NCBI GenBank assembly: GCA_035771165.1
Contig: JAWNZC010000349.1
Span: 2,408,501 to 2,472,500, forward strand
Direction: 5' to 3'
DNA from: Paragorgia papillata
Taxonomy: Eukaryota; Cnidaria; Anthozoa; Scleralcyonacea; Coralliidae
Length of the DNA: 64,000 nucleotides
The notes under the pieces were generated by a model. That model was not told the DNA's origin. It saw only the letters and a list, made by a program, of their open reading frames with translations, and made no database searches. Below, piece by piece: positions 13,346 to 63,072 of the stretch (positions within the stretch are counted from its first letter, which is position 1; each line of letters begins with the position of its first letter). Position numbers and translations under genes: made by a program.

Positions 13346-14915
13346 TCTAATAATTGAGTTGTGAGAACGGCTAAAGTACTGTACGATTATATAATGGATT
13401 AATGGCAAAAATACTATACGATATATTTACTAGTAACAATGAGTCCACATATACATATTTTTTCATTCTGCTTGTACGATACCAGATATTACTTTTCGAT
13501 ATATTACTTTCAGATATTACTTTTGATTCACTTATATAATCAGCACCAGCTTCTGCAGTTAGTCCACAAACAGTTCAATCATTATTATTTATTATTATTA
13601 TTCAGTTATATTCGTCTAAAACAACTTAATTAAGGAAATCAAGGAAGAGTATATAAAAAATTCTGTTTTTTGTCTCATCTCTCTTCTATATATACATATA
13701 AAATCCCAATATATGACCACAACATTCATCGTTATTGGTCTGGCTATAATGGTAGATTTCCAAAGTGCAAACCTAAATGTGCCTTCAGTAATCTTGCATT
13801 TATCAACAAGATGCCAAATAACTCTTACGATAAATGTATGGATACATCAAGTTGATTTCTATTTTTTGAACTAATTTTAGCTTGTTCATCAAAAAAGAAA
13901 AATCACTTTATGTAAGAGTTATATATAGGCTTCGCCCTCACAACTACATTTTAATTTCAAAGAAACATGACATGTGAAGTCAATGAATGCATGACTTTGG
14001 CGTCAAACGCTGCGGGAGATATTACCATGGAAATTAATGAAGAAGTTCGGATAGTTCGGAGTATACAAGGATCAACGTTTAACGTTTTACTTGTGCCTTA
14101 GTATTTTTAGAAGAACAATTGAATGTTTTTGCTTGTTGTATAGAATTGTTTATCCAGCAATCGGGTATTTGAGCAGATTTAGGTTGCGCGCCGCGGGAAA
14201 AACGGAAGCACAATATTTGCGTTCGACATCGTTGTTATCGTAGTTGTGCGGTATATTTGTCGTTGTTTCTATTAGATAGTAAATTACAACTTTAGTTCTT
14301 CCGAAATATCGTCTTTTACCATCACAAATGCGAACTACTTACGCCCAAAACTAAAGTGAAATGGCAGACGTTGTAATCTAACTATGGGCCACAGTGTCCG
14401 AGTTTTTCACTATGGCAATATGACGTTAAACTACAGTAGTGTCATAGTGATATCTCCCATTCTATTGTTCTGGCCATGATATAAAATTACGCAGTGTGGT
14501 ATATCACACATCTACTACAGTCTCTAATTGTGATGAGTATATGGATACCACCTTTTGAATGTGCTGGTCAACCATCAGTTAGCTGATGTAATATCTGTGT
14601 AAGCCCCCTATAGATGAGCGCATTTTGCTGCTCTTGGGGTAAACATGGGGCTCAAATAAGATTAAATAAATTTTTTTTTATATATATATATATATATACA
14701 CACATATTAAATAAATTTTTTTTTATATATATATATATATACACACATATACATATGTGTGTGTGTGTTTCACATGCAACAGACATACATGTAATGTATT
14801 GTTACTATATATAGATGGCTATAGGTTTCCGACTAATTCTTTTCTTTAATACCTTTATAGAAATCATAGCAAGAAAAACAAGCTATTCGAAAGGTCTTCC
14901 AAGCAATAATTTATT

Positions 14916-15612
14916 ATGGAGATAACCATTTTTGTAGTGATCTTTGTGACTCTGGCTATTTCATTTAGTACCACGGCTTCAAATAACACACTTCAGTTAC
15001 CACTAACAATTAATCCGCTTTTGCAGCCGGCGGTGGGAAGAGGACAATTCACAAACTTTTTCTTAGTTGAGAACAAAGAATTTTTTTCTGAGATCACGTT
15101 CAGCGACATAATCAACAAACTCGGACATAAGCCAAAAGTCCAGGCCATAAAAAGTATTGAGGCACTCGTTATATTAGCAGCTGCAGCAAAAGAAGATGGT
15201 TTGAATCGTAGTGATTTTGAATTCTTACAAACAAGCAAGTGGTCAATTAATATTTCGGTGCAAGAACTTGCAGCTGTATCAAATATTACATTACCTATCG
15301 ATGATAAGGTGACAGTAATCTCAATTCAAGAAGCAATGTTTAGAGTTCTAGAAAAAAGATTTCAGTTTACAACGGAAGAAGTTGTGGAAAAGTTGAACAA
15401 GTCAAAAACGGTGATTTATTCAGATTTGGAACCTGGCTGGATAGATGTTGTGCGTTTCATCACGGAAAAGAATATTGAGGGTTTAGGAAAAAACTATACT
15501 ATTCCGCCTGTTTGCATCGCCGAATCACTCAACATGTCTCTAGCAAAACTTTACAACTCAACTTTACTACAGCTTGAAGATATTCTTAAGAATAAAATTG
15601 ACATCATGAAAG
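14916..15612 (+). CDS. Gene A exon 1: signal peptide plus N-terminal family domain
   Basis: The exon encodes 232 residues beginning MEITIFVVIFVTLAISF, a clear signal peptide. Several N-x-S/T sites fit secretion. It ends AAAG|gttggt. Joined to the exon at 17032 it reads EAVERLSECSAFA in frame, restoring a cysteine. If the intron is retained, translation stops two codons later (TAA at 15618-15620), giving a short secreted product. The local order of conserved motifs matches the first exon of genes B, C and D. Confidence 0.75.
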
Positions 15613-18600: not shown

Positions 18601-21600
18601 CAGAAAGAGTTAGGGTCCGTTTACAAGGAGGTAGGGTTACCCAAGCGCTCGGGTTTACAAGCAAAATTTCACAGGTGTAGGGTCACCCTGCTGCCCGGGT
18701 CAACTTTATTAGACGTGGTTACCAAGCACTAACAACAAGAAGGGAAGAGGCCTGGAGCTAGTAAAAAGTTGTCCCAGGTAGGCGAGTTATCCCTACCAAA
18801 CGCGTTTACAAGGACAAAACATAACCCGGCTGCTAGGGTTACCCCTTAGAGGCGTGATAGACTTACCATAGCACCCGAGTTACTCTAGCATCCTTGTAAA
18901 CACGACAAACAAAAAAAACAAGAGATGTTACCTCCTTGTAAACAGGCCCTGAATGCTTTGTTTCCTACTTGAATTATCTTGCATGCCCAAGACATCTGGT
19001 GTTAGCCAGAGTAAGATAATAAAAGTTCACTTTGGTGCTACTCGAGAAAGAAAGAGTTTATAATCATAAAATATCTTATCTAAAGTAGTGCTATACGTGT
19101 AAAAAATCATCTTACATAATGGTTTAAACTTTTTTTTAGGTTTCACAACAAGTCTATCTTTATCAACTGACCCGACGGTCTCGAGTACCTGGGTAATTAA
19201 TAGTAGTACATCTACGATCACCAATAAAACAAAACAAATGCTCGAACTATCACCCTCCACGCTAGTGATTATACAAACCAAAACAATATCCAAAACTCTC
19301 AGTTTAAGTGATTCAGCACCAAACACAACCGTCACACAAGTTATCTACCCGAAGAATAGCATGAAGAACACGGTTTTCACCACCAGTACAATTAACCCAG
19401 AGATGACTAAATTTACCACTCCGATCATTTCAACTATGGACGTCACTTTGTGGACGTCTGCAGCGGTACAGAATCAGTCAACAGATGCTCTTTTAACCCA
19501 ATCTACACCGATATCAACTCTAAAAGAAAAAATATTTTCAACTGATCATCATTTTTCGCCGTCAACAACCGCCAATCTAAGCGAACGTTATACAATTCCC
19601 ACATCTACCTCAAATTTCCTTCGCGCTACAAATACCGTGTTGGCAAATCAAGGTAATACATCAGTTCTAACAAGAATGAGCACACCAATTCAACACAAAA
19701 CCTCGTCTTATTCGGTAAACACAGAAAGCTTACGTAGAACGTTGTCTTATGTAAACACAGAAATACCACGCGAGACCTCATCTTCCTACGTAAAGAAAGA
19801 AAGCCTACACACGACCACGTCTTATTTTATAAACACAGAAATACCACGCAAGACCTCGTCTTCCTACGTAAACAAAGAAAGCCTACACACGACCACGTCT
19901 TATTTTATAAACACAGAAATACCACGCGGAACCTCGTCTAACTCCGTAAACACAGAAAGACTGGACAGGACCTCATCTTATTCCGTTAACACAGCAAGCT
20001 TGTATAGAACGTCGTCTTATTCCGTCAACACAGAAAGCCTACACAAGACTTCGTCTTTTTCAGTAAACACGGAAATTCAACAAAAGATGTCGTCTTTCTC
20101 TACAAACGAAAGACGTTCTTCTATAGCCATAAAAGAGACTCCTGTGGTTTCCAGTGAAACTCCAAAAGCAACATCGACAACATCAAGAAGCAGCAAAGTC
20201 TCGACTATGGCTTTCATGACCAGTCAGATACAAAATACCTCAAGCGCAATCACACCCACACAAATACAAGAAACAGAAATCAGACAATCGACGACGACGA
20301 TGAATTTTCTTAAATCCTCATTTGTTTTTGCAAGTTCCTCAAATGTCGCAACTAGCACTGTCTCTGCATCATGGAGGAGCACGACGACAAGTCTTTGGTC
20401 TTCAAAAATGTCATTAAAAGGCGAAAAGACTGAAAGCTTACAAAGTTCGACCGAAAGCTTGAAACTAGTTTCAAGAGGAATATCTGGTGTTTTATTTCCA
20501 AGTAGTTACCGAGCAACATCACCTTCCTCGGTGTTTACAGGTAAGTCTATAATAGTGGGAGGGACTTTACATATTTATACTAATTGGAACATTCTGAGAA
20601 GATTTGTAATATATCTTCTCAGGCGAAAATTTCATCTTCATGGATTTTTTTGCCGTTAAAGTTGACGGAAGTGACGTCAAAAGAGGAATCTGTAAAGTGG
20701 TTTTCATATAGACAAATTCCTCTTTCGACGTCACTTCCGTCAACTTTAACGGCAAAAAATCCATGAAGATGAAATTTTCGCCTGAGAAGATATATTACAA
20801 ATCTTCTCAGAATGTTTCAACAATGATTAGTATAAATATGTAAAGTCCCTGAGGGATGACACAGGGACTTTAATATTTTGGCAGCATAATCGCGCTAAGA
20901 TACATATAGCTGGTGTTATCGATGAGAGCAGTGCATATAATTTCTATTGCAGGTGCAACATGTATATTTAGATATTAATAGTATATATGAGATGAGAATG
21001 TATCGCACGACTAATCACAAATACATTATATTCAGTTTAAAATAAATGTTTGTACAACTTCTCTTTTGAATGAATCTCTAGATTTCATTGGCTGCAGGCT
21101 AACTCGGAAACCTAGCGATTATTTTAGCCTCTGGGCTCCAGCAATATTACTGTAATTAATAAATTACCATTAATTTATATATTTTCTGTGTGTACTGTAC
21201 ATATTATTTTCATTTGTTAGTAAGCAAATCAATAATTTTTCGCTTCTGTGCATTTTAAGACATTTTGCCCATTTTAAGTTTAACTTTGGGAACCTTAATA
21301 TCTCAAGTGTTTCTTCCACTGGAGTAGTTGTAATTTATAAGATCAAAGTGTATCAATCTATATATATACTTTTAAACGTTACTACATTTTGCCATCGTAT
21401 AAGAGTTTGGCTATGGTGCAGTTTACCAAATTCAGTTGTCCGCTGACCAACTGAGAAACAGTTTGAGATTAGAGTTTACGCTAGTAGTGAGCCTTAGCGC
21501 TGGTTACTAGTGTCCGCTAAACTGTACTTCACGATAATAGTGAGGTTCAGATCGCACTTCCACTACCGCTACCGTAAATGCACGTGGTTAAGCTGCATGT

Positions 21601-24505
21601 TGTAATGTTCTTTTTTTCGTCCTGTAGTCGTAGTTGGTTTTAACCCTAGTACCGTAAAACGCTTTCTTTTTGCACTAGGTTTGAGACCTGCGACCATTAC
21701 TGGACGTAAAAACAATATTTGGACAGGCTTAATTATATTTATGGTAGCGGTAGTGGTAGTGGTAGTGGAAGTGTGATCTGAACCTCGCTAATATATTCTA
21801 ACACAACCATTGCTTCGTTTTTAGGTGTAGTATCTAATACAAGAACTAAAGGTAGGTGTTTATATTTTACTTTAAAACATGTATTTAGCATATGTGATTG
21901 ATAATGCTGGAAGTTCAGAAAAAACCCTGTTTGAAACCTACAGCAGAGTAATGTTAGGGGAAAAAGTGGAGTTTAGAAACAAGAACAATGTACACAACTT
22001 ATCAAGTTCTACATCTGCTAACTAATAATCTAAATTGAACCTATATTTATAGCTGGTTAAAGTAACTTACATTATCTCCGTCATCTCCCTCGATAGGGCT
22101 AACATAAAATACCACAAGTGTTAATTTTTCAAGTTTTTTAATAACACTACATTGTGATGATTGAGGTCAAGTTTACACAAAAAGGTAGAACGACTTACCC
22201 TATGGGGGAAGGGTTAATTAACCTAGTCTATTGTCCTTGAGCGTTTCATTTACACGTGTCTTAGGGTGACCCCATAGGAGGGTTACCCTATCAGCTCGCC
22301 ATGGTATAGATGACGTATAAATACCATTTATGTATAAAAATTTCTAAGTATATATTAATAGTTTCACATATAAAATACTCGATTCACATGCAACTGAGCT
22401 ATATGTGGGACTTGGTGAGATTTTTGCGCAATATGAAATATTAAATCCTTCGACGCTGAACTTAAATGTCGCGTTTAGAAGACAATTGTCGCATAATGTG
22501 CGTGTTCTGAATAAGGATGAAGCGGTTAAAAAGATAACAAATGCATTAACAGAACAATAAATAAACAAGAATTCATATGCAGCAAACTAATTAAAACTAA
22601 TTAAATATAGACATCCCAAAAAGTTCTTGATAATTTTATTAACCATTGGTTTATACCCTCGTAATTTTAAAATATTAAAATTATTGGATTAACGCGCCTT
22701 GTTTGTAAGTGTTGAGCGAACGCTTGCTTTTTACGGCTCGCAAAGAACAAATATTTGTGGCTTATACATGCACTTCACATTTTTAGCTTATGCGTGATTA
22801 ATTTAAATAGAACAACCGTTATACTGATTACATAACGTAATCATACAACATGAAGACCGAAAGCTTACATGGTAAAACCCACCAAACATGAATAACTTTA
22901 ACACTGTATTTCCTCTGTTAAGCCCCCTCCCCATATTAAGCCTCAATTCTAATAACCATCACCCTATTATGAAAAAAGTAAAAATAAGCCTCTCTCTATT
23001 ATGCCCTCTCCCACGTAAAATATGTTGTATTTTCTGTCAAAAATAACTTCATTAATAGTAAATCAATTATAGTTAAATTAAATAAGCCCCACCGTCTTGA
23101 CCTAAAATTAATAAGCTTAGAGGAGGGTCTACGGTAAGTAAAAATTAAAATAGTACTTCAAAATCGTTTTACTCACGATTTCAACCATTATGATCCACAG
23201 ATGATTTTGATCCAGTGATGTTTGTTGTTGTGCCAGTCACAGCAGTTCTGGTTTTGGTTGCCCTTGTAATTGGTATCATTTTATGGTTAAGGAGCAGAAG
23301 AAATTCACAAAGGTACTTGTATATCAAAATTGTCAGTAAACCTAAAATAAACATTCCACAATCTATATATGTGCATTACAAACATTTTGTGAACGCCTAA
23401 TACTATCAAATAACGCTATATTAGCACATCACGTGATAATAATACGTAATATTTAAACAACAATCACGCAATTTGAGAATGACCGTTTCACACACGTAAA
23501 CACGCGCATGTCGTGACAAACCTCGGCAGATTTGTAACAATATCGTTAGAGCAAACAAAATCAAGATTGTTTTCGCATACCAGCTTGATAAAACACATCT
23601 ACTAGGGATTGATTGCGGGAACTCGTAGCAAGCTTGTCGTAGCTCTCGTAGTAGAATTCTAACTATATAATAAAGTATGCAAGCTTGTGTTGTTCACATG
23701 AAAAACTGTTACAGTCTTCAGAGAATTAACAACCTGCTACAGATCTAAAGAGTCTGTCACTATCTCAGCTATATTACAAATACCATATCATGGCTGCGTC
23801 ATACAAACATGATACCACAACAGAATGGTACTTAATAACTGCTTCACCAGGTCACGTCACATCATAATGTGGGCCCACAGTAATTGGTTTAACTTAACTA
23901 TTGTGGTCGCCCTGTCTACTTGCATATATTTATTGTTGATAAATTTTTTTTCTGTATGTCGTAGGCAAAGTTCAATAAAATAAAATAAAATTAAACATAA
24001 ATTAAACATAAATTAAACATAACACGTCATGTCACGTCACGTCACATCACAACACATCACCTCACGTTACCACAGAATAACGTTACCACACGTTACGTCA
24101 CATCACGTCACGCTACATCACATCACATATTACATAACGTCACGTCAAGCAACACTAAACTTTGTCACCACGACAAAATCGTTATTTTATTATCCAAACA
24201 GCGAAAAACAATATTCTTACCGTTAGCATCTCTCACAGAGATAACTTGGGTAAAATCTTCATCAATTGATATTATCATAACCTTTTTCTAGTGCCAGTAA
24301 GAAGGCTGAAACGGGCTCTGAATTATCCAGAAAAGGTTTAGTGGAGAGCTTGGAAAATCTGAATAACAGTAGAACAACAGATTTTGTAAATAAAGGAGCT
24401 GAAGATAGATCAAGTCGTTCTATGTCTAGAACAAGCAGTGTCAGCAACCTAGAAACTATTCACGAAGCAAACGAGCCAGATGAACCAGAGGTAAAATATT
24501 TATAA
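14916..24505 (+). CDS. Gene A: signal peptide, short conserved ectodomain, mucin-like stalk, TM helix and cytoplasmic tail
   Basis: Spliced model of six coding exons: 14916-15612, 17032-17070, 19140-20540, 21825-21851, 23201-23312 and 24292-24505, about 829 residues. All junctions are GT-AG and the frame stays open (phases 1,1,1,1,2). Residues 1-22 are a signal peptide. LPLTINPLLQ, SKWSINIS and GWIDVVRFIT match genes B-D, so residues 23-245 correspond to the N-terminal third of the family ectodomain; the rest of that domain is missing. Residues 246-721 are Ser/Thr-rich with tandem repeats, about 735-753 are one hydrophobic helix followed by LRSRR, and about 70 tail residues follow. The start is the first ATG after an acceptor at 14860, so the 5' UTR is also spliced. 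The function is unknown; the layout is that of a type I membrane mucin. The least certain points are the donor at 15613 (gttggt, chosen because the alternative at 15617 gives an immediate stop) and the final stop. Confidence 0.72.
15763..15908. mobile_element. Inverted-repeat element with cgagccgaaggcgag core
   Basis: gactttaccgggatttcaaa pairs with tttgaaatcccggtaaagtc around a core aatgcgagccgaaggcgagc. It lies in the first intron of gene A. Confidence 0.7.
16140..16292. mobile_element. MITE, about 150 bp palindrome
   Basis: catttgcacgatgacgtaaa and the adjoining gggtgactacaactaccaga are mirrored at the right end (tctggtagttgta..tttacgtcatcgtgcaaatg). It lies in the first intron of gene A. 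Confidence 0.85.
16553..16736. repeat. Dispersed 180-bp repeat, copy 1
   Basis: cgttttcactcacatgatcg and ggtggccccattggggtggt recur at 28745-28925, as does the internal pair of caccaatatggccgc motifs. Confidence 0.8.
17032..17070 (+). CDS. Gene A exon 2: 13-codon micro-exon
   Basis: The 39-bp segment lies between a good acceptor (tttgaaatacag) and a consensus donor (gtatgt). It stays open with the frame coming from exon 1 and encodes AVERLSECSAFA plus the first base of a Gly codon. It is too short to be seen as an ORF. Support is the paired splice sites and the phase 1-1 symmetry shared with the other linker exons of this family. Confidence 0.6.
18609..18952. mobile_element. MITE with agggtccgtttacaaggagg termini
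   Basis: The right end tacctccttgtaaacaggcc is the inverted partner of the left end. The interior is rich in ggttaccc-like sequence. It lies in the second intron of gene A. Confidence 0.8.
19140..20540 (+). CDS. Gene A exon 3: Ser/Thr-rich mucin-like stalk with tandem repeats
   Basis: The 1401-bp exon runs from a poly-T acceptor (tttttttag) to a consensus donor (gtaagt). The 467 encoded residues are dominated by Ser and Thr. Between about 19690 and 20110 there are about ten imperfect repeats of 13-14 residues of the type TSSYSVNTESLHR, alternating with TSSSYVNKESLHT and TSYFINTEIPRK variants. Such regions are normally heavily O-glycosylated and form an extended stalk. An ORF reading from an internal Met at 19238 misses the first 32 codons of the exon. 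Repeat number may vary between individuals. Confidence 0.75.
20561..20850. mobile_element. Near-perfect 290-bp foldback element
   Basis: The left arm 20561-20684 and right arm 20720-20850 are almost exact inverted copies (for example gccgttaaagttgacggaag and cttccgtcaactttaacggc). It starts 20 bases after the donor of the mucin exon of gene A. Transcribed, it would form a hairpin of over 120 bp. Confidence 0.9.
21537..21790. mobile_element. MITE with agtgaggttcagatcgcact ends
   Basis: The left end is mirrored by agtgtgatctgaacctcgct at the right; inner parts are cactaccgctacc and a (ggtagt)n run. It ends 34 bases before the micro-exon of gene A. Confidence 0.75.
21825..21851 (+). CDS. Gene A exon 4: 9-codon linker exon
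   Basis: Acceptor cttcgtttttag and donor gtaggt bound a 27-bp segment that adds VVSNTRTK in phase 1-1. The equivalent position of gene D has a 30-bp exon (63043-63072) and gene C a 69-bp exon (46266-46334), both also phase 1-1, which supports this small exon as real. It can be skipped without changing the frame. Confidence 0.55.
22160..22310. repeat. Degenerate MITE-like fragment
   Basis: aagtttacacaaaaaggtag and cttaccctatggggg on the left are loosely mirrored by cccataggagggttaccc on the right. The ends are not clear. Confidence 0.4.
23201..23312 (+). CDS. Gene A exon 5: transmembrane helix
   Basis: The exon follows a canonical acceptor (tatgatccacag). With the incoming G it reads DDFDPVMF and then about 20 hydrophobic residues rich in Val, Leu and Ile, followed by WLRSRRNSQR. 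The basic residues after the helix predict type I topology with the stalk outside. The donor is gtactt. An ORF starting at 23215 reads on into the intron and is not the real C-terminus. Confidence 0.75.
23866..24022 (+). mobile_element. 3' end of a non-LTR retrotransposon
   Basis: gggcccacagtaattggttt, a gtggtcgccctg block and the aataaaataaaataaa tail correspond to the 3' end of the LINE fragment at 49570-49705 (gggcccgcagtaattggcct, gcggtgaccctg, taataaaataaaataaa). It lies in the last intron of gene A. Confidence 0.7.
24022..24160. repeat. Degenerate (CACGTCACAT)n repeat
   Basis: Many acgtcacatcac units, grading from the LINE tail. Likely grown from the 3' end of the retrotransposon. Confidence 0.7.
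24292..24505 (+). CDS. Gene A last exon: Ser-rich cytoplasmic tail
   Basis: After the acceptor cctttttctag the frame encodes about 70 polar residues rich in Ser, Arg and Glu (for example SRSMSRTSSVSNLETIHEANE), a plausible phosphorylated tail. It ends VKYL and a TAA at 24503-24505. AATAAA follows at about 24592. A possible donor (gag|gtaaaa at 24491) four codons before the stop means another exon cannot be excluded. I see no ITIM, ITAM or clear PDZ-binding terminus. Confidence 0.6.
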
Positions 24506-33084: not shown

Positions 33085-34830
33085 ATGTCGCCTTGTAAAC
33101 CAAAATACCTGAGGTATATCATTGGACTGTTCGTAGTAGCAATAAGCGCAGTCCATGCAAAGAAAGGTATGATTGGCATTCCTGTATCTATTAATCCAAT
33201 AGTTCAGGCGTCATGCATGGAGATGTCGAGCATGTCAAAATTTTTCTACCAAATGGATAAAGACTTTTACTCTCGAGTAACTGTGTCCGATGCGGCACGG
33301 CACGAAGACAAAAATATTGCCGAACTCATAAAAAAGAAGATTGGAGTCCTGTTCCTGATCACTGCATCTTCTCACGTATCGGGATCATTGACAATGAACA
33401 ACCTGAAATATGCGAAACGTAACAGCAAATGGTCTTACAAAATCCCTGTTCAGCAAATAATACAAGAATCTAATGGAACTTTCACAAAACTCTCAGACAA
33501 AATACCGATGTACAGAGTACAAAAACTAGCAATGAAGGCACTAGAACGAAGATATGGATTCAGCGTAGACGCTGTCCAAAATAAACTTCATCTGAAACCT
33601 ATGGAATTTTATGCAGTAGACGAAGAACAATGGATTGATGTTGTTGGTATTATCACAGAATATATCATCAAAAATAGATCTAAAATACTGAACTTAACTC
33701 CATGCTATTTGGCTGAGCTGGTCAATAAAACTCAGAAAGAAATGGCAGCATTCACGCTTGATGAAGTTGACACGTTTCTTTATAATACCAGCATGCTGAT
33801 GGAACAACTGCCATTATATAAACAATCTGTTGTATCTAATTTGTATAAAACGTTCGACATTACAGCAACACAACTGGCAAGTATGAGCAATACCAATATC
33901 ACTGTCATAAATACTATGGGAGTAAAGAATTTAATAGAACTTCTCACGACAACCATTCTGAAAAAGTTCCATCTCACTGACATTTCAGCCTCTTATCAGA
34001 AACCTGAAGCAGAAATTAAGATTCCTTGCCGATTAGAGTGGGATTCCTTTAGAATCGCCGTCATTCTGGAAGCTTTCAAGAACGAAGCAAAAGAAATGTT
34101 TATCACCAGCGAAACACTCGCATCTCTTATTCGTGTATCTCACAATGACCTGAAAACATTTTCGTTAAACAAAATGTTACAGCTGGTTGGAACAGTCATC
34201 AAGCCATTGAAACACGATAAAAAAGTGATTGAAAATCATACGTTGTTAATGTTGAGAAATATCCATGGATCAAAAAGGCTAAGAACTAACAAACACAATG
34301 TTCTTTATTTGTTGAAACGTTTCACAAACTTCTCCAAACGTCAGTTGAGGGTATTGTACGGTTGGACGTCACACGATTATCATTTTGCGAAACTATTTTC
34401 AGTCGATGATCTGGCAAGAGAATGTTCCCTTGATGTTTATAAACATAGCTTGCTCTCACTAGCAAGATTAAACGTGGGCGAAGTGAACAAAGAGTTAAAG
34501 TGCCAAACCTTTTCAGCATTAAGAATGGTTTGGGGTCAAGCAAGTCTTCGTGATTTGAAAGAAATATTCAGTGCATCGACACATGTTCCACTTGACAAGC
34601 CTATCGCAAATACAGTGAGTCTACTCACAAACTCGTCTACGACGATCATTTGCCGTGTGCTGAGTAACACACTGGAAATTCAATGGCTGTTGAAAAGAAT
34701 ATCTTTAAACAACATCTCAGCGTTGACGAACTACACGACAGATTACTTAAAAGAGCTTCCTATTCAACGCATTATGATAATCATGCATGAACTGCGCAAC
34801 GCTGGTTCGTTTGAAGCAGACAGAAATTTG
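33085..34830 (+). CDS. Gene B exon 1: signal peptide and full helical ectodomain
   Basis: Single 582-codon exon ending RNL|gtaagt, phase 0. It carries repeated helical units in which a hydrophobic position and an N-x-S/T are followed by [FL][ST]xxx[MVL]xxL, for example LAELVNKTQKEMAAFTLDEV and LIRVSHNDLKTFSLNKMLQL. Four cysteine positions are shared with C and D. The 3' end of a noncoding first exon may be at about 32920 (gggtaag), with an acceptor at 33011. Confidence 0.8.
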
Positions 34831-37800
34831 GTAAGTTCTTTTTTATAGTTGTGCATTATACTTATTATAAAATAACACGTATACTACGCGAGCCTTGATT
34901 GGTCAATTGCCGTGTTTGGAACACGGAAAATTCCCGCCAAAACGATTTTTGTCGGACAGTATATCATATTCACTTGTGATTATTTTATAAAAGAAATACC
35001 AAAATGGTTTTTTCCGTGTTTGGAGACTCTTATCCAAACACTTGGGAAATTGCTCGACTTTCGAAAAGCTAAAAACACTCGCCTACGGCTCGTGTTTTGT
35101 TACGCTTTTCTCAAGTCTCGCAATTTCCCGCGTGTTTGGATCAGAGTATCCAAACACGGAAAACCATTTGGTATTTCTTTAATACTATACGTATTTACAT
35201 TATTTTATATAAATACTATATTTTGTAGGATTATTTTCACATCTTTCTTAGTTTTATCAAACATCTTTAGAGTGTATCAAAAGAGTATGTTTTTTAAAAC
35301 TATGTTGATACAGAAAGTATTTATATCAATCAAGTGTTTCGGACGAAACGTTTCAGTAAAAATTAATGGAGCTGTGGTTTGAGAACGGCATAAATGACTC
35401 TTATATACTTATATACATGGTACCGTAACTTGCACGGTCACGTGTTAACACTTCTTTTGTCTTACACGGTTCAGAATTCGACCGCTGGAGTTGCGTCCTT
35501 TCTGCAATTTATAAATAAAATGCAGCAGATCTATCTGTTGTATTACATTAAAACTTTCGCTAAAATATTGCGCAGATACATTTTAGACAAAAATATATAA
35601 ACGTAAATGGCCATGTTATTTGATTATGGGACAGACAAGTTGTAAATTTTGATTGTCATAATGTACCCGCATCCTGTTCCCTTTAAGTGTTGACATTGTG
35701 CAAATTTGGTGTGCTATACAATCTTCAGCATTCATCACACGACTTTGTACAAACTTAACACGGACGTACAACATTGTATATATAGGAGGCACAGGAAAAC
35801 AGGAAACCCCACCTCATACTTGTTTACACAAAACCGTACAGTTCTGCAAATGTGCAAAACAAAACAACTGTATATAGTCGAGGAGGAGAAGCGAGAAAAA
35901 GTCGACCACGTAGCACCCCCACTACACAATAGTTTTGACTCCAGATTATAATAGGCTGATACCCATAGAACATTGCTAGGTCAGTCGTCATAGAGGGGGT
36001 GGGTGGTCCTTTAGTTGACAGACTTAAAGTGCACATGAAACGAAAATTAAGTTTGTCTTATTTGAAAGAACACTTAAAATGATAGAGTAACATCTTTTGC
36101 AGTTTTTCGTTTCCTTGCTTCGTTGTTGAGATATTTCAGTTTGTTTGAAATGGAAATTAAACAACTTGACGTCACATGTGCATAATGAGTTATCAGAGAA
36201 GGTTATATATCTTTGCTATTATCAAACATAATCACTTTTTGTTCTATGTTGCTTTATAAAATTCTACATGTTTGGCCATGTGCGAGAAACACACTCACAT
36301 ATACTTCCTTCGAATTAAGTTTGGTTTGATAATAGCAAGATAAGATTAAGATTAAGATTATCATATATATCCTACCACATCTGGAATACTGCGCAGCCCA
36401 GTTCTAATTGGTATTGGAAAAATGCAAAGTAACAAGCTTGAAGAAGCAAATTATTATAATTATGCTTAGAACACTGTTGAATTCAGCAAAGAGCAACACG
36501 TATGAACAGGTTCTCCGCCAAGTTGACATGAAGACTTTAACTCACCGAAAACGGTTTCATTCGTTGGTGTTACTTTATAAGTGTATTAAAGAGCAAGGAC
36601 CTATCTACATTCAAGAATTCTTTAAGACCAGAGTAGTACCATACAATATACGCGGATCCGCACAAAGCTCGAACAACCAATATTTAACTCTTCATGGTCC
36701 AAGAATTCTTTCAGCTGCATAATTAGTCGTCTATGGAATAACGTCCCAGATACAGCTCACAACGCAGATAATGTCGCGTATTTTAAGAAGATTTTAAACA
36801 ATATTGACCTTAATATTGATATTTATGTTGCATGATTGCAAGCACATAAATTTTAATTCTTATATTCATTTAACACCTTAATATATAACTGATTATATAC
36901 TTACATATTATTTATTCACATGTTTTAACTTTTGTACTATATTAACCTTACTTATTTAATGGCACGTCCATGTTTTAACGAATCTTGTACTCCTAAGTGT
37001 TAAGTGGATAAATAAAGTATGATGATGATGATGATGAATTCGACGTCATCTGTGCGCTTCGCTATTAATATTCAGCACTAACATATTGTTATTTGTTTAT
37101 ATTACATATAGGATATTACCACGATTAATTATTCATCCAAGACGGTATCAGAATTTAACGAAGAGTTCAAGAAACTTGGTAAACAGCACGTACGGCATGA
37201 AAGCCCCACAGCACTTCCACGTTCATTATCAACAAGAACGGCACCAGGTTTGTTTATAAGTAATATGACTTTAAAAAATATTACGATATGAGATTTATAC
37301 GTATTCACCAGTTTATAGATAACTGTTACTGCTTATCAGTTTTTATTCTACAACTTAGTTCATGAGCGATCTAACGCAGAATTCCCGTATCAAGGGCCGG
37401 ATTAGTAAAGAATTTGTAAATAAACTATTTTACAGACACCGTTTAAATTCAGTGTATTTTGAGCAGTTTGAATTAAAGTAGTCAAATATAGAACACAATG
37501 AAAAGAAATACCAGATAGACTTTACACCAGTCCCCTATAGAGTGAATCATAAAAAAGAAAAACCGGGAGAAATAAAGAAAACTAAGAAATATTGCATGCA
37601 TGTATAGTGATATGAAAGGCTCTTGATAAAATTAATATTACAGGCAAACAAAAATCCCTAAACAATCATCATTATAGCTATGGTAGCCAGAAACACGGAA
37701 TGAAATTCATTAGCCATGCACGAAAGCAAAGAACCTGAAAAAGTTACTTGGAGCCTGAACACAAAAACATGCATATAAACCAGTTGGTTTTACTGTTTTA

Positions 37801-38089
37801 GTATAAACCAACTTGTCAGACAAAATATTGGTTTAAAAAAGCAAACCGAATTACCTCCTTCTTTGCCATTGTTTTGCATTTGGAAATCGACTCCTTTCGC
37901 TACTAGTTATCTATATCGCCAATAGACAGTGAGTAGCTCAGCCAATCAGAATGCAAAATTATAATCCACTATAGGTTCGACTAAATTTTTAACTTATAAT
38001 TTCTGTCAATTTTCTCTTTCCTTGTAGGCAATGGATTATCAGCAGCTCTATGTGTTGCTGTTTTGATCGGATATGCAACAGGCTTCTGA
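33085..38089 (+). CDS. Gene B: secreted ectodomain protein with predicted GPI anchor
   Basis: Spliced model: 33085-34830, 37112-37247 and 38028-38089, 647 residues. The first exon holds a signal peptide (RYIIGLFVVAISAVHA), then IPVSINPIVQ, SKWSYKIP, DEEQWIDVVGIITE, CYLAELVNKT, CRLEWDSF, WTSHDYHFAKLF and a Cys pair, all shared with genes C and D. The second exon (DITTINYSSK...) is a polar linker. The third encodes NGLSAALCVAVLIGYATGF and a stop: small residues and a hydrophobic end with no cytoplasmic part, the layout of a GPI attachment signal. Splice sites are gtaagt, gtttgt and cttgtag. AATAAA lies at 38269. The start at 33085 was chosen by alignment with the paralogs; in-frame ATGs at 33019 and 32989 would add a second hydrophobic stretch. 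I do not recognise the family. Confidence 0.75.
34985..35195. mobile_element. Inverted-repeat element in gene B intron 1
   Basis: aaagaaataccaaaatggtt with ttccgtgtttgga on the left is mirrored by tccaaacacggaa and accatttggtatttcttt. The core reads acactcgcctacggctcgtg, the cgag motif again. Confidence 0.8.
36030..36345. mobile_element. MITE related to 7106-7415
   Basis: gtttgtcttatttgaaagaa and gatatttcagtttgtttgaa match the other copy; the right half is shorter. Confidence 0.65.
36361..37037 (+). pseudogene. 3' end of a LINE (reverse transcriptase C-terminus), broken
   Basis: The translated pieces read PHLEYCAAQF, then HRKRFHSLVLLYKCI, QGPIYIQEFF, and in another frame SFSCIISRLWNNVPD: the C-terminal signature of CR1/L2-type non-LTR reverse transcriptases. 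It has an in-frame stop after CAAQF and a frame change near 36710. It ends in (GATGAT)n, the usual 3' tail. A 5'-truncated dead copy in the first coding intron of gene B. Confidence 0.8.
37112..37247 (+). CDS. Gene B exon 2: polar linker
   Basis: The acceptor is attacatatag and the donor gtttgt. It enters in phase 0 and leaves in phase 1, exactly as the second exon of gene C does (45601-45781). It encodes about 45 polar residues (Lys, Ser, Thr, Glu). It is short compared with the stalks of A and D. Confidence 0.6.
38028..38089 (+). CDS. Gene B exon 3: GPI-type C-terminus
   Basis: The acceptor tttctctttccttgtag is strong. The exon encodes GNGLSAALCVAVLIGYATGF and TGA at 38087-38089. There are no charged residues after the hydrophobic stretch, so a GPI signal is more likely than a transmembrane helix with a tail. 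Confidence 0.65.
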
Positions 38090-42680: not shown

Positions 42681-44411
42681 ATGGACACCACAATCGCCAA
42701 GATCATTATTCTGCTCCTCTTAGTGGCTGGTCGTGTGACTGCAACAAGATCCTACGTGATTCCACTATCCTTAAATCCTTTCATTCAAAGTCCAATACGC
42801 CTTACAGGTTTCGTAAAAACAATGTACAACGCTTATGTGAATTTTTACTCCAAGGTAACACTCACTGATGTATCAGACGACACTGAAAAAGATTTAAAAG
42901 ATCTCGTTGAAAAAAAACTTTCCGTTGTTTTCCTCACAACTCTCTCTTCATACGTCGCGGAAACATTGACTTTAAGCGATCTAAAATTTAGTGGTCCAAG
43001 CAAATGGTCTTACAATATCTCCATCGACGACATGATAATGGTATCAAATGGGAGCATCACCGAATTTAACCAAGATATGGAATTGTATAAGTTCCAAGAA
43101 ATGGCTATGAAAGTCTTAGAAAATCGTTACAGCTTTAACATGAGCAAAATCCAAAATGAGCTTGGCTACACTATGATGGAATTCCTAGGAGCAGACGAAA
43201 AGCAATGGATTGATATAGTTGGTATTATCACACAAAGCGTCATCGACAACCAGTGTGAAAAGTTAAAAATAACCTCATGCTACTTGGCTAAACTTATCAA
43301 TAAGACTCTCGATGAAATCAAAGCGTTTACCCTTAACGAAGTTGATAAGCACCTCTACAATACCACCATGCTCATGAACAAACTACCTGCGTTCCAAAAT
43401 ACCACCTTGGAAGACTTCTATAAAAAATTCGACCTTTCATCAGGAAAACTGGCAAACATGATCGGTGTGAACATCTCGGTAATACAGTCTTCGGGGTTAA
43501 AAGATCAGATACAACTTTTCACAGCAAGTATTCTGGAAAAATTCCGATTGTCCGTCACAGCCTTTTCCACGAAGTATAAGAAGTCGATGAAAGAAGTCTT
43601 AGTTCCTTGTCAGAACGAGTGGGATTCGTTTGAAATCATCGTTATTCGTGAAGCTTTCGAACAAGAGGCAAGAAACATGTCTATTACAAATAAAAAACTA
43701 TCATCTCTCATTCAAATACCTTATGACACTTTGAAAAATTTTTCTTTTGAAAGCATGCAAAAATTTCTTGCAACTGTGGTAAAGCCAGTCAAGGAAGCCA
43801 AGAAAAAGATTGAAGAAAAAAGTTTATTCGCATTGACAAGCATTCAGGATTCACAAATCCCAAAGATCACAAGTAACAACGCTGTGGCAGTTATTCAAGC
43901 TATTACAAATTTCACCAAAAGTCAGTTGTCTACGCTTTACCATTGGACACACGCTGATTATCAGTTTTCAGAAATGTTTTCAACTGCAGATCTGATCGAG
44001 TGCTGTTCGTCTAAGGTGTACAACTACAGCCTGCTTACACTGGCAAAGATTAATATTGGAAAAGTACTTAAAGGTTCCTCTTGTAAGACCTTTGACGCAC
44101 TACGAGCAATTTGGGACAGAGCAACAGTGAAAGACATACAGACCAATTTTACCACACAAGACAATCTTCCAAGCAATACGTCCATAGCAAACACGCTTCA
44201 TTCACTGACAAATGCATCATCAGAATTCATCTTCCGTGTTCTTAATATCGAATCTGACGTGCAAGAGTTATGTTCTAACGTAAGCTTACAGCAGATTTCT
44301 AATGTCACAACGCATTCCATTTCGCATCTCAAACACATGTCATTTCAAGATATCATCAATCTTGTGGTCAAACTGAAACAAAACGGCTCCCTTTATCATA
44401 CTCAAAAGATG
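42681..44411 (+). CDS. Gene C exon 1: signal peptide and full ectodomain
   Basis: Single 577-codon exon ending CAAAAGATG|gtgagt, phase 0, at the same place as the end of gene B exon 1. It aligns with B and D over its whole length by shared motifs and cysteines. Continuing through the donor adds only 13 residues before a stop, so intron retention would give a soluble form. Confidence 0.82.
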
Positions 44412-46478
44412 GTGAGTAAATATACAAGCCATGTATATTACAGACAAATATAGACTGGCGGAGAGACGAAAAAACAAACGGACAGACAGACAGACAGACA
44501 GACGTATGGACGAACGGAACGTTATTTAGAGAGTAGCAATGTACAGTATATAAAGGCTAAAAATAGTGCACTGCCTAAAGAGAGGAGGGAAGGAGGAAAG
44601 GAGGGAGGGAAAGAGGGAGAGAAGGAGGAAGGGAAAGAGGGAGGGAAGGAGGGAGGGAAAGAGGGAGGGAGGAAGGGAAGGAAGGAGGGAAGGAAGGAAG
44701 GAAGGAAGGAAGGAAGGAAGGAAGGAAGGAAGGAAGGAAGGAAGGAAGGAAGGGAAGGGAGGGAGGGAGGGAGGGAGGAAGGAAGGAAGGAAGGAAGGAG
44801 GGAAGGAAGGAAGGAAGGAAGGAAGGAAGGAAGGAAGGAAGGAAGGAAGGAAGGAAGGAAGGAAGGAAGGAAGGAAGGAAGGAAGGAAAGAAAGAAAGAA
44901 AGAAGGAAGGAAGGAAGGAAGGAAGGGAGTGAGGGAGGGAGGGAAGGGGAAATGGAAGGAATGGGTGGTTCGGTAGGTAGGTAAGCCGGAAAAGAGGCAG
45001 AAAAATAGGCAGGCATACGAATTGCCGTTTAATTTTGTTAATAATATCAAAGACCAGACAATTACTTGGAAAAAGCCCACAACATTGAAGAAATGGAAAA
45101 ATAAAAATATTTATTGAACTAACGTTTCGTCGCTACACGCAACATCTTTAGAGTGATTACATTATTACAAATACAAAGACTTTATTTACATAAGGTTACT
45201 AAGACAACCTTATCAGATTCCTATGTTTATCGTTTGTAAATTTAAATTTAATTTTCAAATTTTCTGATTTTTAACCGTTATTTTGTAATTTCAAATTTTA
45301 ACCGTTATTTTGTAATTTTATACTCGTTGTCTTAGTAGCCTTATGTATATAAAGTCTTTGTAATTGTAATAATTTAATCACTCTGAAGATGTTGCGTGTA
45401 GCCACGAAACATTAGTTCAATAAATATTTTCATTTTTCCATTTCTTCAATGTTATGGGCTTTTTCTGTGCTTTAATATTTTTAGCAAGATTACGTTTTCT
45501 GCCTGGAATCTCTGTCTCCTTAATCAGTGTCGTCTAAGTTGAATAAAACTCCTTGCCATACAATAATTTCTAATTCATGGAATTCCGTTTTTTCTTGCAG
45601 ACATATGAAACAAGCTCAATCAACCCTAACTCTTCGGCAAATATGACCTCGATGACGAACGAAAAAGAAAATAGTTTGAAAGCGTTCTCACCCAGCCACT
45701 CGTTTACCAAACCAATCCACGTAACAAAAACAGGAAGTATGACAGATCTCCAAATAATCTCTTCAACTTCTTCGGGAACAGGTATGATGGCTATACTGTA
45801 TTTACTATAGGTGATGATTGATTAAACACCGATCTAATACAAACAAAATAATAGGCACGCCCAGGCGTGCATGTATGTACTGCATTTAATGCCTATGCAT
45901 GTATCTACTGCATTTAATGCCTATAGCTACTATGGTAAAAAATGATAACAACATTGTATTGAGTGCTGAACAAGATTTTTGACAAGATTGTAGATGCTGG
46001 CCATGATATCGCTCCTTAAATATCTCGCCCCATGTTTGTCATAAGGTCATAGCATTGACTTATGAAATACTTGGTGTACAGTAGTTTTTTTTTGTTTCAG
46101 TGGTTTGTCGTCAGTTGTCCTTTCATCCTATATGTTTTGATTGGCTCCGAAGGCATTCTTTTGTTACTTGCTAACACGGATGATAGTATAGTATCTACTC
46201 GCGCATGCGCAGTAGATACAATAATATATCTTGACTTCATTCTTTTCCAAATATCTATATTGCAGGTGTTAATCGGGTCACAACAAGCACGAATACAAAG
46301 CTCGTTAATTCATCGGAGAGATCGTTTAACTCAAGTATGTTATCACCAGTTTTAATGTTGTATATATTTTGCCTAAAAAATACTTCAAATAACACCACAG
46401 AAATAACTCTTTTTTCCTTTTTTTTCTCTAGAAATGGGGATATTATTGTTGATGTTGATACCAGTAATTTACCAATAA
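42681..46478 (+). CDS. Gene C: second GPI-type paralog
   Basis: Spliced model: 42681-44411, 45601-45781, 46266-46334 and 46432-46478, 675 residues. Residues 1-22 are a signal peptide (IIILLLLVAGRVTA). The ectodomain has IPLSLNPFIQ, SKWSYNIS, DEKQWIDIVGIIT, CYLAKLINKT, CQNEWDSF, WTHADYQFSEMF and the third and fourth conserved cysteines. Exon 2 is a Ser/Thr-rich linker of 60 residues, exon 3 a 23-residue linker, and exon 4 encodes KMGILLLMLIPVIYQ and TAA, a hydrophobic end fitting a GPI signal. Junction phases are 0,1,1. The start follows a clean acceptor (tatttcacag at 42667). AATAAA overlaps the stop codon. The function is unknown. Confidence 0.75.
44574..44950. repeat. (GGAA)n / (GGGA)n purine microsatellite
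   Basis: About 375 bp of pure purine on the + strand, inside the first coding intron of gene C. ORFs reading poly-(EGRK) or poly-(LPSF) are artefacts. Confidence 0.95.
45071..45472. mobile_element. 400-bp foldback element in gene C intron 1
   Basis: aaaagcccacaacattgaag, aatatttattgaactaacgt and the atctttagagtgatt block are all mirrored on the right (cactctgaagatgttgcgtg, gttcaataaatatttt, cttcaatgttatgggctttt). It carries the acgtttcg..catcttcag signature. Confidence 0.85.
45601..45781 (+). CDS. Gene C exon 2: Ser/Thr linker
   Basis: The acceptor gttttttcttgcag and the donor gtatga bound 181 bp encoding TYETSSINPNSSANMTSM and further Ser/Thr-rich sequence with N-glycosylation sites. Phase 0 in, phase 1 out. 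A large inverted-repeat element (45071-45472) sits just upstream in the intron. Confidence 0.65.
46266..46334 (+). CDS. Gene C exon 3: 23-codon linker
   Basis: Acceptor tctatattgcag, donor gtatgt, phase 1-1. It encodes GVNRVTTSTNTKLVNSSERS and a few more residues. It can be skipped in frame, like the linker exons of A and D. Confidence 0.6.
46432..46478 (+). CDS. Gene C exon 4: GPI-type C-terminus
   Basis: The very T-rich acceptor (ttttttttctctag) leads into a frame reading KMGILLLMLIPVIYQ and TAA at 46476-46478. The hydrophobic end with no basic tail predicts removal and GPI attachment, with likely sites in the preceding FNS. Confidence 0.6.
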
Positions 46479-56562: not shown

Positions 56563-56564
56563 AT

Positions 56565-58479: not shown

Positions 58480-58560
<81 letters not shown>

Positions 58561-58563
58561 CAG
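58470..58563 (+). repeat. (TTA)n microsatellite ending in the gene D splice acceptor
   Basis: About 90 bp of TTA/ATT repeats pass straight into attattattccag. The exon follows with a 12-base leader and the ATG at 58576. Confidence 0.9.
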
Positions 58564-58575
58564 AACGTCACCAAG

Positions 58576-61500
58576 ATGGTTCTCAGTCGAGTCTTCTTTT
58601 ATGCTTTGGTGGTGCTGCTTCTTTCAAGCAATGCAAAATGTGAAGACACGTATGACATTCCAGTAACATTTAATCCTTTAATACAGAGTTCTGTTGAATT
58701 AGGTTCAACGACAAAATATTTCTACGTTCAGGACATACCCTTTTATTCAAATGTTACAGTTATCGATGCTGCAGCAGATTCAGAAACACGCGTCACAGAC
58801 ACAATAAAAAAAGCCATTACCGTTGTATTTTTAACGACAGTATCCTCGCATATATCGATATCCAAAAGTTTTGAGCTACACGATCTTCGATACATCAAGA
58901 AAAGCAAATGGTCATATACTCTAAACGTCCAAAGCATTGTGGACGCATCCAATGGCAATATTAACAAAATTACCGATAAAACGATTATCTACCGAATTCA
59001 GGAAAATGCTATAAAAGTCTTAGAAAAACGATATCAATTTAACGTTGACGAAATTTTAAGCGAACTGGGTCTCACAATAATGGGGTTTTATGGAGTTGAC
59101 GAACAACAGTGGATTAAAGTAGTTGGCATCATCACACGGAAAATTATCAACAACAGATTAACAGTGTTGAACCTAACGTCTTGCTACTTGGCTGAAATGG
59201 TAAATAAGACTGTGACAGAAATGCAAGCATTTACGCTTAACGAAGTTGACGAGTACCTCTATAACACCACCATGCTATTGGATAAATTGCCAGCCTTTCA
59301 GAAGACCGTCGTGTCCAGTTTATACCAAACCTTCAACACGTCAGCAGAACAATTGGCAACCATGAGCGACACTGACATCGCAGTTATAAACACTAAGAAT
59401 TTGAAAGATGTTTTACAACTATTTACAAAAAGTGTTTTAGATGAACTTCGCGTCACCGTGTCCCAAATTACTGAAAGCGACTCGTCGTTCGAAGAGGAAA
59501 TGTTGCTGTCCTGTACAGATAAATGGGAACCTTTCAGAAGCCTTGTGATCTCAATATCATTTAACAATACCGCGAAAAACATGTCTATCACAAGTCAAAA
59601 ACTTGCATCTCTCATTAACTTTTCGTATACAGATATTAAAAAGTTCACAATAAATCAAATGTTACATGTACTTTATAAACTTATTGAACCGCTGCAAAAA
59701 GACAAGAAATTGGTTGAAACTTCTGTACTGTCCGATGTCGTAAGCCTCCATGGTACACAAAAACTAAATATTAAAGAAGACAATGCTTTTGCAGCAATCG
59801 AAATATTTACTAATTACACCCAACGCCAATTGACATTGCTATATGGTTGGACACAACAAGATTATAAATTTGCCTCGATGTATCCATTGGATGACCTGAA
59901 CAATGTGTGCTCGATTAAATCCGACGACTACAATCTGTTAGAGTTAGCAACAATTAACATTGGTCAGGTGGGAAATAACTTTCAGTGCAAGTCATTCAAC
60001 GCGTTGCGAGATATTTGGGAAAAGAAAAGTGTTCGTACTTTAGAAGAGAAATTTGGAGAACTCATTTCACTTGACAAGTCAATTTCTACAACAGTCAGTT
60101 TGTTGACAAATGCAACATCACCAATCAACTACCGTGTGTTAAATATTACATCAAAGACACAAGAGTTTATCGAAGAAATAACATTCAACAACATCTCCTC
60201 AGTCACAACCTATTCAAATTCAGACTTGAAGACAATGTCGTTTCAAGATATCATTGTCCTTGCTGTGCACCTAAAACAAAATGGTTCGTTCGATCACACC
60301 GTGACAGTGGTTAGTGTTTCCATTATAACAGTTTTAACACCAACACTACTAATAGTTTCCACTAACATCATTTCCAATATCAGTAAACTTCACATAACAG
60401 AATCTGTACAATTCAATGCAACTTCCCCACTCAGAAATGCATCATCTTACTCGAAGTCAATATCAGCTTACCAAAACCTAACAACGCTACCCATAGACTA
60501 CTGGCCTTCCTCACGACTGCTATCACCAACACTTATTTCAACTTCCACTCAAACGTCATTAGTCTATGCGTCAAGTTTTAAAAATCAGCACATAAATACA
60601 GAAGTCGTGAATACTCAGTTAAGTAAAACCATAAACATATCTCAATATACTTCAGCTAGGGAAAATTTGACTTTCGTATCAATCTCCAGTTCCCCTTATT
60701 TGGATTTTAGTAATTTTACTGCGGCTTTGTCTAGTAATTTACCTGACAGCATAAGATCATCCTTTGAAGAAAAAGTATCTAATACTAAAATGGATCATAC
60801 TGTATCCAGTACACATCAAAGCACCCCTTTTCTTAAATCTACGACGATTTTGAATCCAAACATGCCGTTTTCCATAAGTGACTCTAACCAAAATATTTCC
60901 AGTTATACTAGAATGAACTCAATGAATATGAAAACCCCAACATTCGATAGCTCAAATTACGTTAGCAAGAACACAACAGCATCAAAAACACAATATCTGA
61001 CATCGACGTCTACTGATCAGTCAAACCAATCCCACACGTTCGTATACACTACCAATCTAAATGCATATCCATCAAAAACTATACTAGCGCAACCAATAAC
61101 AGATTCCTTAGAAAGCGTATCACTTCAAATATCATTGCCTTCAACCACATCAGTTATTTATAAGAACTTCAACACAACCAAAGCACAATCATTCACTGAT
61201 ACCCAACTAACAGTACCATCACCAACGGTAATGATGGAAAATTTGACTAAAACTATTCAATCACACGCCCTAACACCATCCCTAGTTTACTTGACAACTA
61301 CTAAAACTATTATATCCATCAGTAACAAACAATTAAACACCAACTCTGTTGCTAACTCGACCACTGTAACGGTCAACAGAGCGATAGAAAACTCCTCTCC
61401 AGCGGATGGCATAGCTGCATCTTCTAATGGAGAAAATGATATGTCAACGAGCGTATCACCAAGCAGCAGCTTACCAACTATGATTTCTCTTGTTATGCAG

Positions 61501-62236
61501 ACAACAGACGTAAAATCTATCATACATTCCAGTATTCGATCGAGCACATCCGTACTAAGTACTCTAACGCCCACCATGGCAACTACACAATCGTCCACGC
61601 CATTGTTCCTATCACCGTCCACACCATCGATTACTATCGTAACTGGAATTATAAAGATGTCTTCAGATAAACCCACATCCTCAGATTTCCCATCCGGTAT
61701 TTCGAGAACTGTCAGTAACCCATACCTGAAAACCTCAAGTGTACCAAACACCACCACTGTCCTAACCAGTATCTTACCAATGTTCTCTCCAACAGTCTTA
61801 CTGTCATCAAGATCAATAATGATCAATGTAACGGCATCAGTTCAACAAAACGCGAGTACACCAGTAACATCTTCCTCCACTATCTCCAACACAGGTAAAT
61901 ACCAAAATTCAAATGTCATATTGTGATGTATATGGTATTGTTATTAACATAATCATATATAAAGGTCTAAAATTCTAATTATCAAATAGAAACAGTGTTT
62001 TATTCGTAAATTACTTAACATTAATTGCACTTGTGTACCAAATGTTTTCATATTTCTAGCACTTCATATGGTAACATAAAAATCTCAAAAGCTTTTAAAA
62101 AGAAAAAATAATTGTTATTAATCGGTACCAAATGAACGGGTTTAAATAGCATAATCCTAGTTTTTAGCTAAATTTGTATCACACCATTTATTTTATTTTA
62201 TTATAATTATAATAATAATTATTATTATAATTATCA

Positions 62237-62297
<61 letters not shown>

Positions 62298-63072
62298 TAT
62301 TATTGTATTTTTTAAAGTCAAGATTTGTAACCTATTACGTCATAAACCATACTGCGCAAGGGAAAAAATTGTAGGGGGCTGAAAGCGACGTACATTAATT
62401 ATACAGATTGACTTCACTTTCATTCCTGGAGTTAGCGTTCTAGATGTATGAAGAATGAATTTTACTCCTCTGACTAATGACATTTTTCCAAGACGATTAA
62501 TGATTTTTTTACGGGTTAGTAAAAGCATGCATAGTCACTAGAATTGTCTGGAAACACGCAAAATCGAAGCGGTTAATTATAAAGTTATGTTGAGGATGTC
62601 CTCAACTGGCTCAACAGCACAAATATTTTGTTTTAAGTTCATACAACATGGTTGAACGATTGTGAGAAAGTGTGCAGTAAGTGTGAAAGTGCAACATTTG
62701 CATAAACTTGAACAAAAACACAGAACAAAGAATTTAGCCGCCGCGTTTCCATACAGACACTTTTATTCTAAAGACAATTGTAAATGGTCCGGCTTTTTTC
62801 AATCCGAATTACAAAGTTTAAACCTCTAAATTTTGAGTTTTGTACCACAAATCATATGAGAACATAACTATTTTAATATATCCCCAATACTTAAGTGGCC
62901 TTATCTTAAGTTGACTTTCAATCGCAATAGCCAATTTACGTACCGAATGCACGATAAAGCACAGTAGATATTAGCAGAAAGTATTCCTCTTTCTTAATCA
63001 GAATCATTTTTAATAAAAAAATGTCGACTCTCTTATTTGTAGCTAACAACTCAGCAAGATCAAGTAACAAAG
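58576..63072 (+). CDS. Gene D: largest paralog, ectodomain plus long mucin-like stalk (3' end outside window)
   Basis: Coding exons seen: 58576-61894 and 63043-63072; the rest lies beyond the right edge. Residues 1-22 are a signal peptide, followed by IPVTFNPLIQ, SKWSYTLN, DEQQWIKVVGIIT, CYLAEMVNKT, LSCTDKWEPF, WTQQDYKFASMY and the late Cys pair, matching B and C. Residues from about 580 to 1106 are Ser/Thr-rich with many N-x-S/T sites and no obvious period. The donor (acag|gtaaat) is phase 1, as in the other family members. Unlike B and C, no intron separates ectodomain and stalk; the junction residues form a hydrophobic run. The start follows an acceptor made by an ATT microsatellite. By comparison with gene A, a TM exon probably follows, but a GPI end is equally possible. 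Confidence 0.75.
62205..62310. repeat. (ATT)n microsatellite
   Basis: About 100 bp of ATT with minor interruptions, inside the gene D intron. Confidence 0.95.
63043..63072 (+). CDS. Gene D exon 2: 10-codon linker exon
   Basis: The acceptor ctcttatttgtag and donor gtaatc bound 30 bp encoding ANNSARSSNK in phase 1-1. It matches the position, size and phase of the micro-exon of gene A at 21825-21851. No further exon is visible up to 64000. Confidence 0.5.

Follow-up and report, generated by a model that had tools for sequence, protein, structure and literature searches.

The stretch of DNA analysed here (hereafter the window) comprises 64 000 nt of contig JAWNZC010000349.1 of Paragorgia papillata (C349:2408501-2472500, within a 617.9-Mb assembly) and carries four paralogous genes, termed A, B, C and D. 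Using A, B and C as tblastn queries, we found the first exons of the four genes to match one another with E-values of 9e-20 to 6e-155, whilst no further copy was detected in the window beyond them; the four same-strand paralogs of the original prediction were thus recovered. The N-termini of all four proteins are signal-peptide-like on inspection, and the motifs [IL]P[VL][ST]xNPxxQ, SKWS and QWI/GWI are present in each, as had also been proposed. All models use GT-AG splice sites with consistent phases and have zero internal stops, yielding predicted proteins of 816 aa in five exons (A), 647 aa in three (B), 675 aa in four (C) and at least 1116 aa in the two exons seen (D). The coordinates below are those of the window, and every exon of the four genes lies on the plus strand.

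Gene A begins with an exon for the signal peptide and an N-terminal helical module of ∼230 aa (14916..15612, end phase 1), for which 31 homologs and an AlphaFold model are described below. This is followed by a Ser/Thr-rich stalk exon (19140..20540, phase 1-1; 40 % S/T) with 39/78-bp tandem repeats inside, a probable nine-codon linker exon placed by its splice sites and phase (21825..21851, phase 1-1), an exon encoding a transmembrane (TM) segment with stop-transfer (23201..23312), and a final exon encoding the cytoplasmic tail to the stop (24292..24505). The tail has 70 residues and a single Tyr; neither an ITAM nor an ITIM was seen in it by inspection. Just past the stalk exon (20560-20850) we observed an inverted repeat (self-complementarity 88.6 % across 298 columns) that may be left from a mobile element. 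Upstream of the gene, at 9458-10220, lies a 277-bp tandem repeat (2.8 copies, 99 % match) with TA repeats on its flanks.

Gene B encodes its signal peptide and full ectodomain in exon 1 (33085..34830), a linker in exon 2 (37112..37247), and, by inspection, a GPI-type hydrophobic end (GNGLSAALCVAVLIGYATGF and stop) in exon 3 (38028..38089). Gene C is built similarly, with the signal peptide and full ectodomain in exon 1 (42681..44411), a Ser/Thr/Asn-rich linker in exon 2 (45601..45781), a further linker in exon 3 (46266..46334), which aligns to the homolog P0002, and a GPI-type hydrophobic end (KMGILLLMLIPVIYQ and stop; by inspection) in exon 4 (46432..46478) that resembles the end of the same homolog. 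P0002 (source label 'lgn') is a protein of 773 aa encoded in a single frame on a 2,679-base contig; its C terminus, ...NSSEKTYISKMGISLCIIMQTIYQWA, aligns with that predicted for C, ...NSSERSFNSKMGILLLMLIPVIYQ, and the linkers are similar too. The 3' exons of gene C are therefore supported by a protein that is encoded in one frame and has a comparable linker and tail at its end. Two short frames in this part of the window (36408-36719 and 48889-49056) resemble by eye the reverse transcriptase tails of non-LTR retrotransposons.

For gene D, the original prediction had the first exon ending together with the ectodomain, which did not prove correct: a single open exon (58576..61894) encodes the signal peptide and full ectodomain and continues, with no intervening intron, into a long stalk of 37 % Ser/Thr, a layout matched by the homolog P0046 (1047 aa). 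A probable second exon (63043..63072, phase 1-1), placed by splice sites and phase, would add a short linker. No membrane anchor or terminal exon was found for D in the window or up to 17 kb beyond its last exon, and scans for phase-1 exons of GPI or TM type returned candidates of which none was convincing. As such, the several anchors attributed to the cluster were recovered as a stalk, TM segment and tail in A and as GPI-type ends in B and C, whilst D retains its stalk without a located anchor.

Fold and homologs of the ectodomain

The four genes had been thought to share one ectodomain. This applies to B, C and D, where it is full length, but is not right throughout, since A has just the N-terminal ∼230 of ∼575 residues (26-30 % identical to its paralogs by tblastn), and relatives elsewhere in the genome are longer. 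Pfam searches gave no significant match for the exons of A–D and nothing below an E-value of 0.007 for 17 B/C/D-type members; a PDB sequence search with the ectodomain likewise gave no significant match, and comparison of the ectodomain models with known structures no confident fold match. These results agree with the earlier description of an undescribed family with no recognised domain. The structure prediction that had been suggested for C was run with AlphaFold and returned a superhelix that is entirely helical and built from units of three helices (mean pLDDT 83.5); the same architecture was obtained for A (mean pLDDT 81.4), with the same order of helices, from an alignment that does not overlap that of C. 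In the models, each unit would span roughly 38-55 residues and consist of one long and two short helices, a layout that appears helix-turn-helix (HTH)-like and with which ARM-type repeats are also compatible.

When Pfam matches with E-values up to 10 were considered for 32 A-type members, a range in which the negative results are bounded by HMMER filters that lose most matches above about 0.1, weak similarity was seen to Sigma70_r3 (18/32), PCI (16/32) and HTH_69 (15/32). An HTH or PCI identity of the A-type module was considered and rejected: in the ten members detailed, the sole hit over a curated cut-off was to PCI in P0016 (24.1 versus 22 bits), for which the single stretches all score below that cut-off. 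Unlike the HTH domains of HipB, Aca1 and sigma-70 region 3, the proteins described here bear signal peptides and consist of tandem units, and the HTH profile hits inspected fall under their curated cut-offs.

Outside the genome, we identified at least 14 homologs with E-values of 1.5e-215 to 8e-102 among the 7,999 candidates with the highest number of shared words, 31 via gene A (6e-88 to 3e-57), and one further homolog, P0046, via a profile among the same number of candidates selected in this way, giving a total of at least 46. The nearest are ∼60 % identical. The octocoral Paramuricea clavata is the organism given for two of the 31 found with gene A, both labelled 'Hypothetical predicted protein, partial', and four others are labelled simply 'hypothetical protein'. 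Comparison of profile with profile linked the A-type to the B/C/D-type (99.8 %, E-value 8e-30) and to the inverted longer relative described below (97.3 %, E-value 1.8e-11). In one A-type homolog, P0015, the C-terminal half of the module is by eye doubled in tandem.

The predicted fold invites comparison with mesothelin, which one study (PMC2628672) describes as GPI-anchored and as binding the mucin MUC16; the same study predicts for its superfamily a superhelix of ARM-type repeats, each packing one helix against another that is broken in two, and proposes that members act as lectins. By that account, our genes would resemble mesothelin, stereocilin and otoancorin in a predicted superhelical, helical ectodomain, putative GPI anchoring, a possible mucin partner and three-helix units that, as modelled, are compatible with an ARM-type layout. 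Given also that GPI-type helical forms adjoin mucin-stalk forms in the cluster, B and C might act as GPI-anchored superhelices that bind glycans on the mucin stalks of A and D, or on other mucins, much as in a mesothelin/MUC16 pair. We nevertheless consider such a pairing improbable: unlike those proteins, the family gave no sequence match or Pfam match here to mesothelin, with no mesothelin family in the 17 or 32 members at E-values up to 10, where the filters lose weak matches. Moreover, no mesothelin chain or ARM protein appears among the fold matches listed, an absence that excludes nothing.

Relatives upstream and elsewhere in the genome

The cluster of four genes stands as far as A–D are concerned, but it exceeds the window. 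Upstream of it, three extra A-type modules (U1, U2 and U3) form a tandem array of ∼3.2-kb units, where DNA identity to A is 92-97 % in the main matched blocks and 76-84 % in the others; judged by this DNA, the array is a product of recent tandem duplication. U1 encodes a signal peptide and contains a TAA in frame; some of the array may accordingly be defunct. U2 and U3 each form an uninterrupted 391-aa frame, with ∼160 residues from the start of the A stalk exon joined in frame to a module. These fusions occur twice in tandem, at L012:3107-4282 and 6275-7450 (within C349:2398501-2408500), and would provide a possible route to multi-module receptors. No TM segment or tail was found in the array by homology to the corresponding exons of A, nor did scanning for TM segments with a filter on pyrimidine tracts, which overlooks the TM acceptor of A as well, detect one. 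Farther upstream lies an inverted, longer relative with an exon of 733 aa (L015, minus strand, 4166-1965). Two of the exons that follow it (L015/L016, minus strand) match Calx-beta in Pfam, with E-values of 1.3e-8 and 6.4e-8, and approximately four additional ones are Calx-beta-like by eye. Within the window, no Calx-beta was found among ORFs of ≥ 40 aa using a home-made model, which in L016 recovered its training exons only; L015 was outside the loci scanned.

In the genome as a whole, at least 13 places match protein C, namely A, B, C, D, U1–U3, a copy on contig C354 and five longer relatives, three of them on C349 and two on C265. Searches with A and with a longer relative returned eight and six places, respectively, all within the 13; each of these counts is a lower bound. 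The A-type copy on C354 lacks introns, its signal peptide, module, Ser/Thr stalk, TM segment and basic tail lying in one stop-to-stop frame of 468 aa. As it is a single frame, it supports the module–stalk–TM layout of A independently of splice inference. Its single Pfam hit falls far below the cut-off.

One longer relative, at C265:3.61 Mb (minus strand; L028/L048, L040) and hence on a different contig from the cluster, was assembled into a 959-aa model with GT-AG sites and phase-1 junctions; over the part that matches, its identity to C is 27 %. The predicted order is ectodomain, two EGF domains (the first by Pfam, the second by pattern), TM segment and tail. The tail reads YAEL-x11-YQGL, YTQL-x10-YTSL and a final YEEL, and thus contains two motifs of the ITAM pattern YxxL/I-x(6-12)-YxxL/I behind a TM segment, a result that applies to this gene model only. 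When the tail was shuffled, two or more ITAM-like motifs arose in 6 of 50,000 shuffles and at least one in 1,115 of 50,000, the pattern having been chosen after the tail was inspected. For the other longer relatives, no TM exon was found in the downstream DNA, which was retrieved for three of the four. EGF patterns, assigned by strand and order only, number 16 in the 20 kb after the relative at C349:1.84 Mb and three in the 20 kb after that at C265:3.60 Mb. Repeated matches of YSIL type downstream of these relatives were discarded as low-complexity DNA. The L026 and L027 relatives (C349, ∼1.84 and 1.80 Mb) are 97.2 % identical in a DNA alignment of 2,290 bases, indicative of a recent duplication.

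Some of these features would be expected of a decaying cluster, in which the genes are pseudogenes or fragments: an in-frame TAA is present not only in U1 but also in one of the C265 relatives, A is shorter than B–D, and the anchor of D was not located. Set against this are the long, open frames of A–D with their splice sites and consistent phases, as well as the homologs that each type has in other datasets, and we regard decay as very improbable.

A variability hotspot in the A-type modules

Comparison of A, U1, U2 and U3 revealed 31 variable residues in 210 aligned (one being the U1 stop), 23 of which fall within residues 41-86, corresponding to the N-terminal cap helices in the AlphaFold model of A. 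In 20,000 permutations, none reached 23 variable sites in any 46-residue window. Of nine codons with synonymous variation only, two are inside this segment. For the four modules, which are near-identical, related and not independent, the ratio of nonsynonymous to synonymous-only codons is 23:2 in residues 41-86 versus 8:7 elsewhere (Fisher p 0.008), or 7:7 elsewhere when the stop site is excluded (p 0.005). Without U3 the ratios become 11:0 versus 7:6 (p 0.016, or 0.014 if the stop site is also excluded). Additionally, in 495 of the 496 pairs that 32 A-type proteins form, residues 41-86 are more divergent than residues 87-230 (mean 53 % versus 27 %); relaxed constraint would account for this cross-species excess no less well than selection.

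Synonymous divergence is also raised across residues 25-96 in pairs with U3 (dS 0.15-0.20 versus 0.01-0.05), and a mosaic origin or gene conversion may therefore account for some of the hotspot. In the remainder of the module, dN exceeds dS in one pair (U1–U3), on few changes, and in the B/C/D-type ectodomains no comparable hotspot is evident. Both the raised dS in U3 pairs and the lack of a hotspot in the B/C/D type would suit weak constraint on the capping segment combined with gene conversion elsewhere, in a family with a conserved housekeeping role. The codon ratios, with or without U3, point the other way, and we hold this explanation to be unlikely, albeit one of some weight.

Possible roles of the family

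At the level of sequence, A–D and their relatives form a family of surface type whose stalks, anchors and partner domains are exchangeable, with recent tandem duplication, a hotspot in its A-type modules and an ITAM-like pattern on one relative; expression, surface display, a ligand, signalling and a part in recognition are what we infer beyond this. The reading that we prefer, and consider about equally likely to be right or wrong, is that of an octocoral recognition or adhesion family of type-I surface glycoproteins in which signalling and non-signalling forms are mixed. A helical superhelix would be presented at differing heights and with differing output: A and the C354 copy would carry it on a mucin-like stalk joined to a TM segment and tail, B and C on a short linker ahead of a GPI-type end, and D on a long stalk, whilst in longer relatives it would be followed by EGF or Calx-beta exons, one of these relatives being modelled with a TM segment and two ITAM-like motifs. 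The N-terminal cap (A residues 41-86) would be the likely contact site for a partner, as it is the most variable part among A-type modules. The most likely mechanism would be recognition and adhesion, between cells or between cell and microbe, in which the role of ligand, co-receptor or decoy might fall to the GPI and stalk forms, and signalling through Src/Syk-type kinases to the ITAM-tailed form. Based on the varied anchors and the immune-type motifs on a relative, the family may help colonies to sense or stick to other cells. Indirect support for recognition comes from the hotspot in the A-type cap and from the receptor model of the same family with two ITAM-like motifs. Among the open-licence papers searched on octocoral recognition, mucin/GPI and ITAM, no description was found of an octocoral recognition gene family or of the present one. 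Combined with its stalk, GPI-type, EGF, Calx-beta and ITAM-tail partners, the signal-peptide-bearing superhelix offers concrete candidates for how octocoral colonies sense neighbours or microbes.

The Hydractinia Alr proteins are of Ig type. PMC12065747 describes Botryllus receptors as Ig/Sushi proteins, and reports ITIM/ITAM-type motifs on candidate allorecognition genes of both Hydractinia and Botryllus, whose receptors are described as unrelated. In common with the clustered surface genes of Hydractinia Alr and Botryllus fuhc, predicted surface genes are clustered here; ITAM-like motifs were seen on the C265 relative but not in the tail of A. Unlike in both systems, the ectodomain is predicted to be all-helical, and no Ig or Sushi family was among the Pfam matches of the A–D exons or of the 17 and 32 members. 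Receptors of the Alr and fuhc type are also marked by polymorphism that governs fusion or rejection, whilst the cluster is known here from one assembly. A bolder version of the preferred reading would make the cluster and its ITAM-tailed relative all or part of the missing octocoral histocompatibility/allorecognition system, with a non-Ig ectodomain of three-helix repeats, a polymorphic N-terminal cap as contact site, ITAM signalling convergent with that of Hydractinia, Botryllus and vertebrates, and stalk-module fusion leading to multi-module receptors. Such a system is a speculative proposal that we think will probably turn out to be wrong. With a role of the preferred kind, ITAM signalling would gain a further, independent family of receptors.

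Calx-beta and EGF are common matrix modules. Together with the mucin-like stalks and a low copy number (13 places, a lower bound), these partners would also be in keeping with structural adhesion or glycocalyx/matrix proteins of epithelium, mesoglea or skeleton that have no self/non-self role, the stalks spacing the superhelix and Calx-beta/EGF making calcium-dependent matrix contacts. According to PMC7853314, mucins and 18 proteins in which no domain was identified occur in the skeletal matrix of octocorals, a composition with which such a role would be compatible. In disagreement with this are the ITAM-like tail on a relative, the localised nature of the variability hotspot and the existence of both GPI-type and TM forms, and a purely structural function is in our view rather unlikely. 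The Calx-beta exons after the inverted L015 relative also recall the sponge aggregation factors, which are Calx-beta proteoglycans (PMC10815962); unlike in those, Calx-beta is here tied to the L015 relative only.
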